Virus record (IMG/VR): IMGVR_UViG_3300017971_000650 | Coordinates: 1-29,085 of that record | DNA length: 29,085 bases | Origin: a virus | Strand: one strand, 5' to 3' | Part shown: positions 4,996-28,256 of the stretch, in pieces | Numbering within the stretch: the first letter of the stretch is position 1 | How the letters are laid out: each line of letters starts with the position of its first letter | Made by a program: the position numbers and the translations under genes | Notes under the pieces: generated by a model | The model's database searches: none | Seen by the model: the letters and a program-made list of their open reading frames with translations, nothing else | Told to the model about the DNA's origin: nothing

Positions 4996-5201
4996 AGACC
5001 GATAAACAAAGTAAAGTGGCAAAACTGAACGAGATAGCGGAGAAGATCCAAGAAGCCTATTTCGATATTCAGGAATTTAACGGCCTCGATACCGGAAACT
5101 CTACAAAAAGTAAATTATTGGATGCCCTAGACGGTATCGGCACTATACGCAGAAAATTATTAACCGAAGATCAAAATAAAGAAGATGGCAAAACAGATTA
5201 A
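4992..5201 (+). CDS. Small hypothetical helical protein (69 aa)
   Basis: 69 residues, highly charged and predicted to be mostly helical (KLNEIAEKIQEAYFDIQEF; LLDALDGIGTIRRKLL). It starts in an ATGA overlap with the VRR-NUC gene and itself overlaps the ParB-like gene by 17 bases, so it is tightly embedded in this operon. I see no domain and no membrane segment. Function unknown; possibly a small accessory factor for the nuclease or the ParB-like protein. Confidence 0.55.
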   Translation: MKTDKQSKVAKLNEIAEKIQEAYFDIQEFNGLDTGNSTKSKLLDALDGIGTIRRKLLTEDQNKEDGKTD

Positions 5202-5988
5202 AATCGAGGAATTTAACCCGGAGCGTAGAAAGCTATCCGACCTCGTAGAATTTCCAGACAACCCGAGGATCTTAACCCCGGAGCGTAGACAGTTCCTAAT
5301 AGACTCAGTAAACGAGAACGGAAGGACAAACCCACCGATAATAAATACCGATAATACGGTTATCGGAGGCAATCAAAGGCTAGAGGTATTTATGGAACTC
5401 TTCGGCCCGGATCAAGAAATATGGGTAATGGTTCCACCCCGGAAGCTGACCAAGAATGAAGCCGAGAAACTTAATCTCAGGGATAATGTCTCGATAGGAA
5501 AGTGGGATGGTGATATAATCGTAGAAAAATACGATGTAGAGTATCTACGGGGAATCGGTTTTGAAGATTTTGAACTCCTTGATATGGGATATAATTTTGT
5601 ATATGAAGATCCTGATGGTGAAGATCCTGACACGATCTATACTAAGAAGATTGAAGCACCTATCTATACACCCTCAGATGGTGAAACAGATATAAGAGAC
5701 CTCGTAAACCAAGAGAAGTATTGGAAGCTCGTAGAAGAGGTCGAGTCAGCTAAGATCCCGGCAGATGTAAAAGCCTTCCTAAAGTTTTCTGCCGCCAGAC
5801 ATTTATCCTTTGACTATAGCAAAATTGCTGATTACTATGCCAAAGCACCAGAAGAGGTACAGGGATTAATGGAGAAATCTGCCCTCGTTATAATAGATTT
5901 TAATAAAGCTATTGAAAATGGATATATAGAATTGTCAAAGAAGTTAAACGATTTATTCGACCAAGACTATGCCGGGGATGAAAACTAA
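5185..5988 (+). CDS. Phage ParB-like (ParB/Srx fold) protein
   Basis: 267 residues. The N-terminal half has the ParB/Srx-type layout: LSDLVEFPDNPRILTPE, then NGRTNPPIINTDNTVIGGNQRLEVF with a GGNQR turn in place of the ParB GxxR box (about residues 61-65), and LNLRDNVSIGKWD. The C-terminal half carries FSAARHLSFDYSKIADYYA and MEKSALVIIDFNKAIENGYIEL. I associate this with phage ParB-like proteins found beside DNA methylases or base-modification genes. ParB folds can be CTPases, nucleases or DNA-sensing adaptors. With a glycosyltransferase and a radical SAM enzyme next door, guiding or sensing DNA modification is the best guess. Partitioning is unlikely because there is no ParA. Confidence 0.7.
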   Translation: MAKQIKIEEFNPERRKLSDLVEFPDNPRILTPERRQFLIDSVNENGRTNPPIINTDNTVIGGNQRLEVFMELFGPDQEIWVMVPPRKLTKNEAEKLNLRDNVSIGKWDGDIIVEKYDVEYLRGIGFEDFELLDMGYNFVYEDPDGEDPDTIYTKKIEAPIYTPSDGETDIRDLVNQEKYWKLVEEVESAKIPADVKAFLKFSAARHLSFDYSKIADYYAKAPEEVQGLMEKSALVIIDFNKAIENGYIELSKKLNDLFDQDYAGDEN

Positions 5989-6829
5989 AAACTTTGCCGC
6001 CTTTATCCTTACACATGGAAGGCCAAACCACGTTGTAACATATAAGGCTCTACGTAGTGCAGGATACACAGGCAAAATATACCTCGTTTTAGATGATGAG
6101 GATAAAACGATTGACCTCTACAAAAAGGAATACGGGGATCAGGTTATTGTATTCTCAAAATCAAAGGTCTTGGATATAGTAAATATGGCAGACAACTTTG
6201 AAGGGACAGGATCTGTTTTGTATGCCCGTAATTATAATTGGGATCTTGCTGAGAGCCTTGGAGTCGATTATTTTATTCAGCTTGATGATGACTATAATCA
6301 TTTTCGATATAAGTTCAATTCTAATATTGAATACGGAGATTGGGCGATTAAGGATCTAGATAGTGTTTTTGATTCTATCCTAGAATATTACAAGAAGATC
6401 CCTGCCCTCAGTATTGCTCTAGCTCAGGGTGGAGACTTTATCGGTGGAGAAGATGGAACTTATGCTCAGTCATTAGGAACGAGAAGGAAAGCGATGAATA
6501 CTTTTATCTGTTCTACAAAAAGACGCTTTCAATTTATAGGTAGACACAACCACGATGTATCTACATATACTTTATTAGGAAGTCAAGGGCATCTATTTTT
6601 ACAGCTTAATCACTTAGCTATAAATCAACTAGCAACACAGTCTCTTCCTGGAGGATTAACAGAAGTGTATAAGGAGAAAGGAACGTATATCAAATCGTTC
6701 TATACTGTAATTCATAATCCCTCTTCCGTAAAGGTTGCTACGATAGGAACAAAGTTCAAGAGAATACATCACAAGGTGAATTGGAACAAGACTGTTCCGA
6801 AGATCCTCTCAGAAGATTATAAGAAATGA
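5978..6829 (+). CDS. TAGT-type DNA-base glycosyltransferase candidate
   Basis: 283 residues from ATG 5978 (preceded by GGGG; ATG 5969 is an alternative). The N-terminal LTHGRP (11-16), TYKALRSAGYTGKIYLVLDDED (21-42), YARNYNW (82-88) and the DxD-like QLDDDY (101-106) are hallmarks of the GT-A-fold glycosyltransferases that computational work linked to TET/JBP base hydroxylases in phages (TET-associated glycosyltransferases). FIGRHNHDVSTYTLLGSQG (187-205) supplies a later conserved Asp/Tyr segment. Family members are proposed to add sugars to modified bases. No TET/JBP enzyme lies in this window, so the acceptor is open. The gene overlaps both the ParB-like gene and the radical SAM gene. Confidence 0.7.
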   Translation: MKTKNFAAFILTHGRPNHVVTYKALRSAGYTGKIYLVLDDEDKTIDLYKKEYGDQVIVFSKSKVLDIVNMADNFEGTGSVLYARNYNWDLAESLGVDYFIQLDDDYNHFRYKFNSNIEYGDWAIKDLDSVFDSILEYYKKIPALSIALAQGGDFIGGEDGTYAQSLGTRRKAMNTFICSTKRRFQFIGRHNHDVSTYTLLGSQGHLFLQLNHLAINQLATQSLPGGLTEVYKEKGTYIKSFYTVIHNPSSVKVATIGTKFKRIHHKVNWNKTVPKILSEDYKK

Positions 6830-7791
6830 AGCCGAGAAAAAACGAAACGACAGCCGTAAACCACCGGGAAGTCCTTGAAGATATTGTGCCTGTCGGTGTG
6901 CATATAGAGGATTGGAAAGAGTGGAGAGAAAAATACAATGCCGCATCCCGGCTAGAGGTACAGGAATTTCCTCCGCAGATAAATATAGAGCTAACGGGAG
7001 CCTGTAACTACAAATGTCAGTTCTGCGTACAGAGCTATATGGATAGAACAAAGGGAGAAATACGGCACGAGGATTTCAAGAAAATTATTAATGAGGCTGT
7101 ATCTCTAGGAACGAGAAGTTTGAAACTGAGTAATTGGAACGAGCCGCTCCTTCATAATTACCTTGAAGATTATATACTCTATGCCCGGAAAGCAGGAATA
7201 TTTAATGTCTATATCTCTTCAAATGGATCTCTACTATCAAAAGACAGGGCAGAATCCCTTATCGAAGCCGGACTAACGAAGATATTTATTTCGCTAGATG
7301 CTACAAATGAGGAAACGTACTACAGGCAACGTGGCCAGAGGAACTATAAAAAAGTAGTGGAGAACATTATGAACCTTATTGAGATCCGGGGCAAAGGTAA
7401 ATTTCCTATCGTCAGGGTGAACTTTCTGAAAACCGAAATCAATAGAGGACAAGAGGGAGAGTTTGTCCGTATGTGGGAAGGCATAGCAGATATTGTAGGG
7501 ATACAGATAATGAACGAACTCCCGGATAAAGAATCAGGAGTACAAAGAGAAGAGGACAGGAGAGAAAGCTACAGGTGTTCATTCCCTTTCAAGCAGTTAG
7601 TCGTAAACCATGCCGGGCAGATCCTTCCCTGCTGTGTTATGTACGGAGCAAAGATGCCTCTCGGCAATATAGCGGATATGACTCTTAAAGAGGCTTGGAA
7701 CTCTCAGCAGATGAAAGACCTACAGAAACTCCATTTTGAAGGAAGGTTCGCAGAGAATCCTTATTGTAGGAGATGTATCTCAGGAAAATAA
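6826..7791 (+). CDS. Radical SAM enzyme with SPASM-type C-terminus
   Basis: 321 residues. CNYKCQFC (Cys60, 64, 67) is the CxxxCxxC site for the radical-SAM 4Fe-4S cluster. NWNEP (103-107) stands where the GGEP SAM-binding motif is expected. A C-terminal SPASM/twitch region has Cys251 (RCSFPF), Cys269/270 (ILPCC), LGNI..M.LKEAWNS, and Cys314/317 (NPYCRRC), enough for an auxiliary cluster. SPASM enzymes modify peptides, sugars or nucleosides by radical chemistry. Overlap with the glycosyltransferase (ATGA) strongly suggests a joint pathway, perhaps remodelling a base or its sugar. Substrate unknown. Confidence 0.85.
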   Translation: MKPRKNETTAVNHREVLEDIVPVGVHIEDWKEWREKYNAASRLEVQEFPPQINIELTGACNYKCQFCVQSYMDRTKGEIRHEDFKKIINEAVSLGTRSLKLSNWNEPLLHNYLEDYILYARKAGIFNVYISSNGSLLSKDRAESLIEAGLTKIFISLDATNEETYYRQRGQRNYKKVVENIMNLIEIRGKGKFPIVRVNFLKTEINRGQEGEFVRMWEGIADIVGIQIMNELPDKESGVQREEDRRESYRCSFPFKQLVVNHAGQILPCCVMYGAKMPLGNIADMTLKEAWNSQQMKDLQKLHFEGRFAENPYCRRCISGK

Positions 7792-8038: not shown

Positions 8039-8545
8039 GTGAGTGAGCAGGGAATCAGCAGACGAGATCAGATCCTTAAGAAAACGGAACAGCAAAAGCA
8101 GTTTATTAATTTTCTTACGGCTAAGATGTTTAACGTCTCAAAGGCTTGTAAGGCTTTCGGGATCTCCCGTAAAACTTATTATCAATGGCTCGATAGAGAT
8201 CCTGAGTTTGCTGAGATGGTTTGGGAAGCTAGAGAAGCCGAGAAGGATATATTTGAGGATAACGTCAAGCTCCTTGCCAGAGGTATTCCGAAGGTAGATA
8301 AAGATGGGAAGCTAATCGGGTGGGTGGAACGCCCGGATACAGCCTCGGCTATCTTCTTGAATAAGACTCAGAACAAGGATAGAGGATATATCGAAGGGCC
8401 AGAGAAAGCAGACGGAACTATCGAGGACGACTCTCTGGACTTCTCCAGACTTACGCAGGATGAACGAACAATATTTTTTAATCTTCTCGAGAAAGCTACA
8501 ATACAGAAGGATAGCAATATCGAGGATGCTGAAATAATAGAATAA
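8039..8545 (+). CDS. terS: Terminase small subunit
   Basis: 168 residues beginning at GTG 8039; no ATG lies early enough to include the N-terminal helix. Residues about 26-60 (FLTAKMFNVSKACKAFGISRKTYYQWLDRDPEF) form a helix-turn-helix of the small-terminase type, which recognises the packaging site. It is followed by a helical oligomerisation segment (FAEMVWEAREAEKDIFEDNV) and a WVERPDTASAIFLNKTQNKDRGY segment common in these proteins. The acidic C-terminus (EDAEIIE) could contact the large subunit. Its place just upstream of the large terminase gene supports the call. Confidence 0.75.
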   Translation: MSEQGISRRDQILKKTEQQKQFINFLTAKMFNVSKACKAFGISRKTYYQWLDRDPEFAEMVWEAREAEKDIFEDNVKLLARGIPKVDKDGKLIGWVERPDTASAIFLNKTQNKDRGYIEGPEKADGTIEDDSLDFSRLTQDERTIFFNLLEKATIQKDSNIEDAEIIE

Positions 8546-8551
8546 AGCCTA

Positions 8552-8620
8552 ATGATGCCATTTCTAGCCTCGTACATAGCAGATATAGTGTTCAGTAGTA
8601 TATTACCCAAGATAAGATAA
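8552..8620 (+). CDS. Hydrophobic 22-aa micro-ORF coupled to terL
   Basis: ATG 8552 opens a frame encoding MMPFLASYIADIVFSSILPK plus IR and ends in TAA 8618-8620, sharing its last A with the ATG of the large terminase (TAATG). The same stop/start fusion occurs at 10107, 16151 and 19671, between real genes. The peptide is hydrophobic enough for one membrane helix. It may be a real micro-protein or only a leader that couples translation into terL; no homology can be claimed for so short a sequence. Confidence 0.35.
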   Translation: MMPFLASYIADIVFSSILPKIR

Positions 8621-10107
8621 TGGAAGCCGCTACGATTATAAAATCACTCCCTATAAGCAAGGTCGTTAAGATCCGTAAAGAATCTTACAAGGATTCATAT
8701 TGGCGATTCTTTAAGAACGCTTGGAAGGTTATCGAGCCAGAAACTACGCTAAAGGAGAATTGGCACATGATCTATATATGTGAAGAGCTAGAGAAAGTTG
8801 CCCGTAGAATTATCTCCGGTATCCCTAGAGATGCACACCTGATTATTAACGTACCGCCTGCTACCACGAAATCTACACTAATAACGGTTGCCTTCCCGGC
8901 TTGGTGTTGGATCTTAGAACCTAGCTTGAAGATCCTAACTATGAGCTATGCCTCAGATCTCGCCCTGATCCACGCTGTAAAATCTAGGGATATTATTCAG
9001 AGTAATTGGTATCAGGATTTATTCGGAGGGATCTTCTCGCTTAAGTATGACGTAAATAAGAAATCCGAATATCAGAACGATAGATACGGACACCGGATAG
9101 CCTTCGGGGTCGGGGGTGGAGCTACCGGAAAACATGGAGACCTGAATATTTGTGATGATCCTCTTAACCCGAAGATGGCCGCTTCAGAGGCAGAGACAAA
9201 AAAAGTAAACGATTGGTGGGATAATACTATATCGAACCGCTTTACTGATCCTCTCGTAGCTCAGAAGATCCTCGTAATGCAGAGGCTATCAAAGAACGAC
9301 CTTACGGGGCATTGCTTAACGAAAGGAGATAAGTACAGGCAAATATGCCTTCCTGCGGAGAAGAGCAAACATATAAAGCCTATAGAGAAAGCCTCGAAAT
9401 ACGTAAATGATCTATTGGATCCCGTAAGACTCTCTCGCCCTGTCCTCGAGGACTTCCGAGTGGAGCTTGGGGCGCAAGGCTACGCAGGACAGTACGGGCA
9501 GACTCCTACAGCCGAAGAGGGCAATCTCGTTAATCCTGAATGGTTTGGAAGGTTCGACATACCTACGATTATTCAAGAAGCCTTTAATCAGGGTGTAGAT
9601 CTCTCTTGGGACTTCTTTATTGACTCCGCATTTACGGAGAAAACGACCAACGCTCCTACGGCTATTATGGCGGCCGCTAGGATACTCGGACACCTTTACG
9701 TAAGGCATACGCAGAGGGTATGGATGGAACTCCCCGAGCTTATTAAGTTTATCCCCGGTTATGTCTCTGCTCATGGATACTCGGAAGGATCTCGGATATT
9801 TATCGAACCAAAAGCCTCTGGACTCCCTGCGGCACAGATGTTACGTAGATATACGAAGCTGAATATTATCCTCGATACCGCACCGACTACGGATAAAGTA
9901 TCTCGGCTTAAAGCCTGTCTGCCCTTTATGGAGGCAGGAAGGCAGAAACTCTTAAAGGATAGCGATTGGATAGAAATGTACTGCGGAGAGTTAAAGACAT
10001 TCCCGTTCTCAGATTATAAGGACTTGACCGATATAACTACTATGGCTATAAATAGGACACAAGAACAAGACTCCGGTGGAGAGATCTTTGGAATGGAGGC
10101 GATATAA
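8620..10107 (+). CDS. terL: Terminase large subunit
   Basis: 495 residues. The ATPase half has an atypical Walker A, NVPPATTKST (77-86), a coupling-region serine stretch (TMSYASDLA), and a Walker B-like LNICDD (175-180). The C-terminal RNase-H-like nuclease shows FFIDSAFTEK with a conserved Asp335, RIFIEPKASG with Glu near 400, and a late Asp in FPFSDYKDLTDI. This enzyme powers DNA packaging through the portal and cuts the concatemer. Length and domain order are normal for phage TerL. The gene is followed without a gap by the accessory island (TAATG overlap), where many phages would have portal and head genes. Confidence 0.93.
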   Translation: MEAATIIKSLPISKVVKIRKESYKDSYWRFFKNAWKVIEPETTLKENWHMIYICEELEKVARRIISGIPRDAHLIINVPPATTKSTLITVAFPAWCWILEPSLKILTMSYASDLALIHAVKSRDIIQSNWYQDLFGGIFSLKYDVNKKSEYQNDRYGHRIAFGVGGGATGKHGDLNICDDPLNPKMAASEAETKKVNDWWDNTISNRFTDPLVAQKILVMQRLSKNDLTGHCLTKGDKYRQICLPAEKSKHIKPIEKASKYVNDLLDPVRLSRPVLEDFRVELGAQGYAGQYGQTPTAEEGNLVNPEWFGRFDIPTIIQEAFNQGVDLSWDFFIDSAFTEKTTNAPTAIMAAARILGHLYVRHTQRVWMELPELIKFIPGYVSAHGYSEGSRIFIEPKASGLPAAQMLRRYTKLNIILDTAPTTDKVSRLKACLPFMEAGRQKLLKDSDWIEMYCGELKTFPFSDYKDLTDITTMAINRTQEQDSGGEIFGMEAI

Positions 10108-26993: not shown

Positions 26994-28256
26994 ATGAAGA
27001 CTGATAAAGATATACACGCTCATCTGATCTCTCTCTCTGAGCCGGAGATAAAGCCGTACTCGGATATACGTAATTTTGGTACTTCCGATTTTATCCCTTT
27101 CGGTGCTGATAATATGTTTCCGCAGGCTCTCGCCCTCTTCTGCCGCACCTCTCCGAATCATAGAGGTATCTTGAACTCGAAGCATACCTATTTTATGGGA
27201 GACGGACTAACTACCGAAGATCAATCTTTTTTGGATCTTCTTGACGATATAAACTATCAGGGAGAATCCATTGAGAAGTTTCTCGAAAAGATAGATACTG
27301 ACTACGGGATGTTTGGTAACGGATATTGGGAATTGATTACAGATAGGAACAGATCGTTTTTATGGTTCAATCATATAGATGCTACGAAGGTCAGGCTAGA
27401 GAAAGGACAGGAGCGAGTAATATTACACCCTGATTGGTCGAAGGATACCGGGAAGTATGACAAGTACAGGAAGTATTTGCCCGTATATCCTCAGTTCGAG
27501 CCTGATCCGGGCGTAGAGGATTTTCCTGCCTATCGCTCCGTATATCACCAAAAGAAGTACGAACCGGAATTTGTTTACTATGGAGTGCCTCAGTACCTCT
27601 CTTCAAAGGACAGTATTCAGATAGATCTTAAGACGAATAAATGGAATCTATCGAGGCTCAAAAACTCCTTCCGGGTATCAGGTATTTTGGTCGTTCCCGT
27701 AAAAGATCCTCAGGAGTCGAAAGACGTAATGAACTATATCAAAAAGAACTATACGGGAGAGGACAATCAGGCAAAACTTCTCACGATTACCAAAGGGAGA
27801 GCTACAGAGAATCAGAAAGCGGAACAGGCTCAGCTTATAGAGACTAAGCAACATGACGAGGGATCTTGGATAAAATTACATGAGCAGAGCCTTGCCGATC
27901 TTATAGTCTCTCACCAATGGTTCAGAACTCTTACGGGGATAGCTGACAATACGGGATTCGATACTCAGAGGATCTTGAATGAATACGAGGTCGCTAAGAA
28001 TACCGTAATCAATAACCGACAGAAGGAATATATCGAAATAATTTCTGAACTCTATAGGGATGTTATCGGCTTGGATGTACCGGAAGATTTTAAATTTATT
28101 AACAGACCTCCGCTCGATACTGATAATTACAAATACGTATGGGAACTCCGGCAGGAGAAAGGTCTGGACTTCGATGAGAACGATCCTGCACAACAGATAA
28201 TAGTAATGCCAAACCAATCAAGATCTAGAAACGATGGCTCTAATAACAGCGGATGA
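26994..28256 (+). CDS. Portal protein
   Basis: 420 residues. The N-terminal FGTSDFIPFGADNMFPQALALFCRTSPNHRGILNSKHTYFMGDG is characteristic of portal proteins from Bacteroidetes phages (PFG.DN.FP....P.H..IL..K...G.G). It is followed by a stem/wing region (FLEKIDTDYGMFGNGYWELI) and a helical clip and crown part (WFRTLTGIADNTGFDTQRILNEYEVAKNTVINNRQKEY). Twelve copies would form the channel for packaging by TerL and the docking point for the neck. It overlaps the adaptor gene by 23 bases. Unusually, it lies after the capsid gene and nearly 17 kb from terL. Confidence 0.8.
   Translation: MKTDKDIHAHLISLSEPEIKPYSDIRNFGTSDFIPFGADNMFPQALALFCRTSPNHRGILNSKHTYFMGDGLTTEDQSFLDLLDDINYQGESIEKFLEKIDTDYGMFGNGYWELITDRNRSFLWFNHIDATKVRLEKGQERVILHPDWSKDTGKYDKYRKYLPVYPQFEPDPGVEDFPAYRSVYHQKKYEPEFVYYGVPQYLSSKDSIQIDLKTNKWNLSRLKNSFRVSGILVVPVKDPQESKDVMNYIKKNYTGEDNQAKLLTITKGRATENQKAEQAQLIETKQHDEGSWIKLHEQSLADLIVSHQWFRTLTGIADNTGFDTQRILNEYEVAKNTVINNRQKEYIEIISELYRDVIGLDVPEDFKFINRPPLDTDNYKYVWELRQEKGLDFDENDPAQQIIVMPNQSRSRNDGSNNSG

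Follow-up and report, generated by a model that had tools for sequence, protein, structure and literature searches.

A cassette of three overlapping genes, encoding a ParB-fold protein, a TAGT-family glycosyltransferase and a BtrN-like radical SAM enzyme (rSAM), is a real and recurrent unit in viral sequences. In the window, a 29,085-nt stretch of viral DNA (IMG/VR record IMGVR_UViG_3300017971_000650), it occupies positions 5185–7791, with plus-strand ORFs at 5185–5988, 5969–6829 and 6826–7791 that overlap by 20 and 4 nt. It lies directly upstream of the terminase genes, which are on the same strand (small subunit at 8039–8545, PHROG 4044, 6.9e-11; large subunit at 8620–10107, PHROG 38, 9.2e-77). 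The trio may be a ParB-guided phage unit for DNA glycosylation and sugar tailoring, to which about an even chance is given. A first-pass annotation made from the letters alone had described three overlapping genes here, the first ParB-like and the second of the TAGT family, and all of this was recovered. Its proposal of a DNA-hypermodification unit also stands as the best-supported reading of the gene company and families, with DNA as the presumed rather than the observed substrate.

The first gene encodes 267 aa, an N-terminal ParB/Srx-fold domain followed by a C-terminal helical domain (CTD; aa 150–267, positions 5632–5988). A profile search matched the protein to PHROG 620 (“ParB-like”) at 2.8e-27. 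It has no Pfam match up to an E value of 1, unlike relatives L008 and L028, which pass Pfam ParB_N, and a PDB sequence search gave no credible match. In an AlphaFold2 model (mean pLDDT 85.8), residues 2–138 match ParB folds (5k5d_A, Z 12.9, 129 residues aligned at 3.2 Å; 7bnr_A, Z 12.4). The model thus points to the ParB N-terminal nucleotide-binding fold, with binding or hydrolysis of CTP or ATP as a putative activity. A canonical partition ParB is less favored because no HTH family matches the protein. This ParB domain also occurs as a fusion partner of N6/N4 DNA methylases, in 55 of 80 viral proteins, and two of four phages inspected have such fusions near the terminase. These resemble the window protein in ParB domain family and, sometimes, in terminase-side position; they differ in that here a separate glycosyltransferase is linked via the CTD, with no fused methylase.

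The CTD, all-helical in the model, matches no Pfam family above cut-off and no library fold above Z 3. The latter comparison used the whole-protein model only, so a new fold is not claimed. The domain was detected in 28 phage records, and its pairing with TAGT is near-obligate. It lies upstream of the window-type TAGT in all 106 loci with room for it, and a search with the CTD alone found a TAGT downstream in every one of the 79 loci that had room (including L323 and L332, missed by the overlap rule, and L314, where the glycosyltransferase is 2.4 kb away). Where the ParB domain has been lost, as in Vibrio phage L032 and also L098 and L153, the CTD is retained alone.

The second gene encodes 286 aa, or 283 if translation starts at the ATG at 5978. 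Its product belongs to Pfam TAGT family PF20691 (3.4e-33; 115.7 bits vs. a cut-off of 27.5) and matches PHROG 842 at 1.4e-67, with no credible match in a PDB sequence search. Its AlphaFold2 model (pLDDT 90.6) is matched by GT-A chains with Z up to 14.9 (5ggf_B and 1fo8; 191–193 residues, 3.1–3.4 Å). The HGRP, DDED and DDDY signatures first used to place it in this family are well conserved among 65 aligned glycosyltransferases: R18 (HGRP) and D107 (DDDY) never vary, and D45 (DDED), D106 and D108 are at least 90% conserved. By this conservation and by comparison with GT-A enzymes, the DDD motif at aa 106–108 (6284–6292) is a likely metal/NDP-sugar site. The enzyme may transfer a sugar to DNA or to a DNA-linked sugar.

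The third gene encodes a 321-aa enzyme with Pfam matches to Radical_SAM (4.2e-20) and SPASM (1.2e-15). Its best PDB match is BtrN, at 3e-13 with the single sequence and 2.2e-22 with a profile. BtrN is a radical SAM enzyme, 2-deoxy-scyllo-inosamine dehydrogenase; it is shorter, at about 250–270 residues, and shares with the window protein the radical SAM core and one auxiliary cluster, whereas the latter is a phage gene product encoded beside a TAGT. In 17 of 17 aligned rSAM sequences the cluster motif CxxxCxxC (C60, C64 and C67; 7003–7026) is invariant, as are five cysteines in the twitch-like auxiliary-cluster domain (C251, C269, C270, C314 and C317; 7564–7779), four of which (all but C270) align with the four cluster cysteines of BtrN 4m7t. 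Although the Pfam SPASM profile matches, these five are the only C-terminal cysteines, against seven in a full SPASM set, and we take the arrangement to be the one-cluster “twitch” pattern. The first-pass statement that all expected cysteines are present therefore holds for CxxxCxxC and for a BtrN-type cluster, but not for a seven-cysteine SPASM domain. By analogy with BtrN, oxidation of a sugar-alcohol carbon is a putative activity of the window enzyme.

The four nearest cellular rSAM relatives, outside one phage-like contig, are 37–38% identical to the window protein. As read from translated ORFs without a family search, they adjoin glycosyltransferase-like, sugar-epimerase-like and transporter-like genes, suggesting clusters of surface-polysaccharide type. 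In a tree, the window rSAM joins the cellular clade on a long branch with support of 93/95, possibly a long-branch artefact. Scanning viral contigs with the rSAM as a single sequence gave zero matches, and tblastn against phage records found only matches of 22–31% identity, some of them partial.

ParB and TAGT genes are beside the rSAM gene in all 34 viral loci of the rSAM family with enough upstream sequence, in the order ParB-TAGT-rSAM or, in one clade, ParB-rSAM-TAGT. The rSAMs are 40–47% identical to the window copy, and the TAGT subtypes at these loci are highly divergent, with partners down to 18–25% identity to that of the window. Conversely, no rSAM was found near the window-type, CTD-linked TAGT at 104 of 105 IMG/VR loci (these counts are of loci, many of them near-identical, and not of independent events), so this TAGT subtype does not need the rSAM, which is an optional add-on. 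A class-I methyltransferase is encoded at eight of 41 rSAM loci vs. none of 73 ParB control loci, L036 has a TAGT-methyltransferase fusion, and L040 a heptose-1-phosphate-adenylyltransferase-like gene. These were counted in favor of the module as extra tailoring-type members. None of the papers listed by literature searches described a ParB-TAGT-rSAM unit.

The TAGT could instead glycosylate RNA, a protein of the phage or its host, or a glycan on the cell surface, with the rSAM tailoring the product. The GT-A neighbors of its model in the PDB do include protein and polysaccharide glycosyltransferases, and the nearest cellular rSAM relatives are in polysaccharide-type clusters. A target other than DNA is nevertheless considered unlikely, given the near-obligate CTD/ParB pairing, a ParB domain otherwise found as a DNA-methylase fusion partner, and the terminase-side position. 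Nor do the rSAM clades share a small peptide: among 13 rSAM representatives the sole conserved small ORF is terminase-type and common to four, which also argues against RiPP maturation.

A more classical route, in which a TET/JBP or thymidylate-synthase-family enzyme encoded elsewhere in the genome makes a hydroxymethylated base for the TAGT to glycosylate, is doubtful to a greater degree. As the window record is a fragment of 29 kb, a hydroxymethylase could be encoded elsewhere in the same genome. As the first-pass annotation had noted, the window itself has no Tet_JBP or thymidylate-synthase homologue. Among 42 non-control records (the window and 41 relatives) there were no Tet_JBP matches, one thymidylate-synthase-family match, in a 191-kb Vibrio phage (Vibrio pv27), and one cytosine-C5 methylase; the positive controls, phage Nigel (gp2, 4.2e-8) for Tet_JBP and T4 for thymidylate synthase, were both detected. 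Relatives without any acceptor-enzyme match include HHTV-2, phi jlb1, c5, NTR1 and Porphyromonas 005b, each of them labelled a complete genome. Because the known enzymes are rare or absent in the searched records, complete genomes included, a hydroxymethyl base pre-made by known routes is unlikely for this family; the earlier suggestion that the sugar is added to a base made elsewhere keeps some room in the window's own genome but is disfavored across the family.

TET/JBP-linked phage glycosylation operons, reportedly described by Iyer et al. in 2013, are said to include a TAGT-family glycosyltransferase and occasionally a radical SAM enzyme. The cassette resembles them in both members, but the window and its 41 relatives lack TET/JBP and have a ParB protein with a CTD instead. 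The classical route does have known T2/T6 biochemistry behind it: according to a recent paper, the T2/T6 PF20691 member (beta-glucosyl-HMC-alpha-glucosyltransferase), which has the family and GT-A fold in common with the window TAGT, adds glucose to DNA hydroxymethylcytosine that already carries glucose (PMC13216743). The T-even enzyme follows a dCMP hydroxymethylase and an alpha-GT, whereas in most carriers here no hydroxymethylase was found, and the window system adds a ParB-CTD partner and a terminase-side location. The same paper reports solitary TAGTs, without an alpha- or beta-GT and with their role unexplained, in 288 of 753 phage genomes (PMC13216743, 2026). The TAGTs described here are likened to these without a search for alpha- or beta-GTs; they differ in having the CTD partner and rSAM add-on, and ParB gave no hits in that paper.

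It had also been suggested that the rSAM itself prepares the acceptor, functionalizing a base that the TAGT then glycosylates. Radical SAM enzymes can functionalize unactivated carbons, and one clade has the rSAM gene between those for ParB and TAGT. This is improbable, however, given that most CTD-linked TAGTs have no rSAM found beside them and that BtrN and the nearest cellular relatives indicate sugar substrates. Since the rSAM is optional and its cellular kin lie beside polysaccharide-type genes, it most likely tailors the sugar instead. A viperin-type or other defense enzyme adjoining a glycosyltransferase by accident is very improbable indeed: PADLOC pVip profiles match the rSAM at 7.9e-17, but only over residues 52–186 in the radical SAM core, while the BtrN match covers the auxiliary-cluster domain, the auxiliary cysteines are invariant and the ParB/TAGT company is constant.

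In a DNA-glycosylation and tailoring unit, the ParB-fold domain would bind nucleotide and load onto phage DNA, and the CTD would hold the TAGT, directing it to that DNA before or during packaging. The TAGT would then glycosylate a base with an NDP-sugar as donor, in most carriers without a hydroxymethyl group made by TET or thymidylate synthase, and the BtrN-like rSAM would oxidize or otherwise remodel the sugar. Trio conservation, CTD-TAGT pairing, ParB-methylase fusions, BtrN kinship, the tailoring-type genes and the action of the T2/T6 PF20691 member on DNA (PMC13216743) were counted for such a unit. Counted against it were GT-A neighbors with protein or polysaccharide substrates, the long rSAM branch, the fragmentary window and, in the portions of the literature examined, the lack of precedent for glycosylation of an unmodified base by the TAGT family.

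More speculatively, and on balance improbably as a joint statement, the ParB-guided TAGT could place the sugar directly on a canonical base (e.g., on an exocyclic amine) that has received no hydroxymethyl group from TET or thymidylate synthase, with the BtrN-like rSAM of the window and its kin oxidizing or rearranging the DNA-bound sugar, and the unit could stand where ParB-fused DNA methylases are encoded in related phages. Such direct glycosylation, if true, would be new DNA glycosylation chemistry, and a radical SAM enzyme that tailors a sugar linked to DNA would to our knowledge be the first case. If DNA is the target, this would be a glycosylation route not starting from hydroxymethyl bases, with a possible protective role and consequences for restriction evasion and phage DNA sequencing.

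The CTD partner domain and rSAM add-on are, as far as the searches go, new for the solitary TAGTs of PMC13216743, one group of which gains a genetic setting: a CTD partner, a ParB chassis shared with DNA methylases, a usual place before the terminase and an optional rSAM. Among 5,426 complete E. coli genomes, 885 carry the ParB-CTD/TAGT pair (at least 80% of it), which makes the question testable in that species.

The cassette at window 5185–7791 consists of three overlapping ORFs on the + strand (overlaps of 20 and 4 nt). The first encodes a ParB-like protein (267 aa), the second a glycosyltransferase (286 aa) and the third a radical SAM enzyme (rSAM, 321 aa); genes for the terminase small (from 8039) and large (from 8620) subunits come next. 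These three assignments, proposed in the first-pass annotation, are backed by Pfam and PHROG. In AlphaFold2 models built from alignments of window relatives, residues 2–138 of the ParB-like protein have a ParB fold (Z 12.9 to 5k5d_A, 12.4 to 7bnr_A), and a helical C-terminal domain (CTD) stands apart from them; the glycosyltransferase, a member of the TAGT family, has a GT-A fold (Z 14.9, 5ggf_B and 1fo8).

Among relatives, TAGT is consistently paired with the CTD. The window glycosyltransferase as query identified 26 IMG/VR loci and, by tblastn, 35 phage records; an alignment-based scan gave at least 591 relatives among at least 599 candidates, and of the 80 retained all but one were new. TAGT is immediately preceded by a ParB domain and/or CTD in 103 of the 106 loci with upstream room (23/24, 73/75, and 7/7 for annotated phage loci). 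Visual inspection of the three exceptions showed a broken ParB/CTD followed by two tandem glycosyltransferases in L010 (500–2270), and the order CTD, class-I methyltransferase, TAGT in L151 (3838–5894) and L152, a variant without the ParB domain. Counting these, the CTD precedes TAGT in 106/106, as a weak fragment only in L010. A further scan with the CTD alone (80 loci kept, 79 with downstream room) found TAGT directly downstream in 76; L323 and L332 have an overlapping TAGT, and in L314 one lies 2.4 kb further on. Several IMG/VR loci, and L032 from a Vibrio phage, have the CTD but no ParB domain. The CTD is carried by 28 phage records, and every organism group represented was also matched in the glycosyltransferase search (compared by group).

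TAGT carriers include Lactobacillus, E. coli, Salmonella, Vibrio, Nocardia and haloarchaeal phages, plus a divergent Porphyromonas pair. A terminase gene follows the pair within two genes in five of seven annotated loci; in HHTV-2 it is several genes off, and none is annotated within the stretch of the Vibrio phage locus examined. In E. coli the pair resides in Rac-like prophages, with matches in 1572 of 5426 complete genomes (over at least 80% of its length in 885). YnaK of the K-12 Rac prophage (L270, 5878–6141) is a truncated copy of the ParB-CTD protein, nearly identical to the first 85 or so residues of the 263-aa E. coli protein, beyond which the similarity of K-12 to the compared strain stops. 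In strain ECCHD184 (L271, 4501–5292) the annotation treats an intact 263-aa ORF as a truncated/incomplete ynaK pseudogene, a labeling that may cause intact pairs to be missed.

For rSAM, a two-sequence alignment retrieved 43 viral loci, 41 close (39–48% identity) and two distant; as L047 and L008 are the same contig, and L074 and L075 are together on another, independent contigs are fewer than loci. Every one of the 34 close loci with enough upstream sequence has ParB; the other seven have just 3–896 nt upstream, too short to hold it. TAGT accompanies rSAM in 39 of the 41, and the remaining two (L056, L075) are cut off. Two main gene orders occur: ParB-TAGT-rSAM, as in the window, with the CTD in many, and ParB-rSAM-TAGT, with a ParB of ~345 aa containing two ParB stretches and a divergent TAGT. 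The sixteen other aligned rSAMs are 40–47% identical to that of the window, whereas the divergent TAGTs are 18–25% identical to the window TAGT: rSAM is not simply tied to one glycosyltransferase lineage. With rSAM nearby in just one of 105 loci brought in by the window TAGT subtype, and in none of the 73 TAGT-free ParB controls, it is an optional add-on to ParB-TAGT. Since nothing in 50,697 phage records matched rSAM above 31% identity, uncultivated phages are the only source of the trio in this analysis. Campylobacter phages CP20 and vB_CjeM_WX1 (matches H172 and H173) have distant radical SAM proteins (24–26%) annotated as "BtrN protein."

BtrN is the best PDB match of the window rSAM (3e-13 for the single sequence, 2.2e-22 for the profile), and its four auxiliary-cluster Cys residues align. 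Scanning GTDB genomes with a 17-sequence rSAM alignment gave 31 loci, one of them (L163, a Maricaulis MAG) phage-like and with ParB. The nearest cellular kin, L159–L162 (37–38% identity; the remaining loci are weak), group with the window rSAM in a tree (93/95, with long branches flagged). Judged from the translated ORFs, their neighbors look like glycosyltransferases, a GalE-like epimerase, and sugar-nucleotidyltransferase-like and ABC-exporter-like genes. A class-I methyltransferase is found within 2 kb in 8/41 rSAM loci, 2/79 TAGT loci and 0/73 ParB controls, and in L036 is fused to TAGT. A heptose-1-phosphate-adenylyltransferase-like gene directly 3' of rSAM in L040 (2425–2820) hints at an ADP-heptose-type donor.

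By family, the cassette belongs with the TAGT systems. It differs in composition from the TET/JBP-linked type, the TET/JBP gene having been looked for and not found, and nearly all relatives searched yielded no hydroxymethylase. Three families were searched across the full length of 44 records, two of them controls and the rest the window with 41 relatives; the IMG/VR members may be fragments. Tet_JBP was found in neither the window nor the 41 relatives, control phage Nigel alone matching; thymidylate synthase matched only control T4 and Vibrio pv27, and cytosine-C5 methylase matched nowhere but in the L021 record. These whole-record searches, with both controls matched, agree with the earlier observation that the window has no TET/JBP or thymidylate-synthase homolog. 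HHTV-2, phi jlb1, c5, NTR1 and Porphyromonas 005b, labeled complete genomes, yielded none of the three. Known hydroxymethyl routes were thus not found in most carriers. ParB-linked TAGTs in L029, L030, L032, L033 and other phage records are labeled "beta-glucosyl-HMC-alpha-glucosyltransferase"; this looks like name propagation, since no hydroxymethylcytosine pathway was found in most such phages. In Mycobacterium phage Nigel (L158, 1–1744) the TET/JBP-like gp2 also lies shortly before terminase, after the uncharacterized gp1.

The T2/T6 TAGT substrate is glucosylated hydroxymethylcytosine in DNA (PMC13216743), making DNA, by analogy, the most likely substrate here. The phage ParB domain is mainly a DNA-methylase partner: among the best 80 ParB-domain viral loci, 55 have N6_N4_Mtase in their proteins and seven the CTD with TAGT. 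Annotated ParB-methylase fusions lie just before terminase in two of four cases inspected, and a published survey reports that fusions of the ParB fold with SAM-dependent methyltransferases bind ATP (PMC12704722). The ParB domain could thus be a nucleotide-dependent DNA-loading part, with the CTD as an adaptor that would let it carry TAGT in place of a methylase; rSAM and the methyltransferase may decorate the sugar. Solitary TAGTs in 288 of 753 phage genomes are left unexplained in PMC13216743, which does not mention ParB; PMC13390438 mentions neither ParB nor radical SAM. No description of a ParB-TAGT-rSAM unit was found in the mostly open-access literature searched.

The window is the entire 29,085-base IMG/VR record, which may be a fragment. 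The best matches to its large terminase (8620–10107), at about 40% identity, are from Cellulophaga and Chryseobacterium phages and vB_RanS_PJN03, which hints at a Bacteroidota host. A portal-like protein is encoded at 26994–28256 (PHROG 11226, 2.6e-16), ~17 kb 3' of the large terminase gene and beyond the tape-measure gene, an unusual order.
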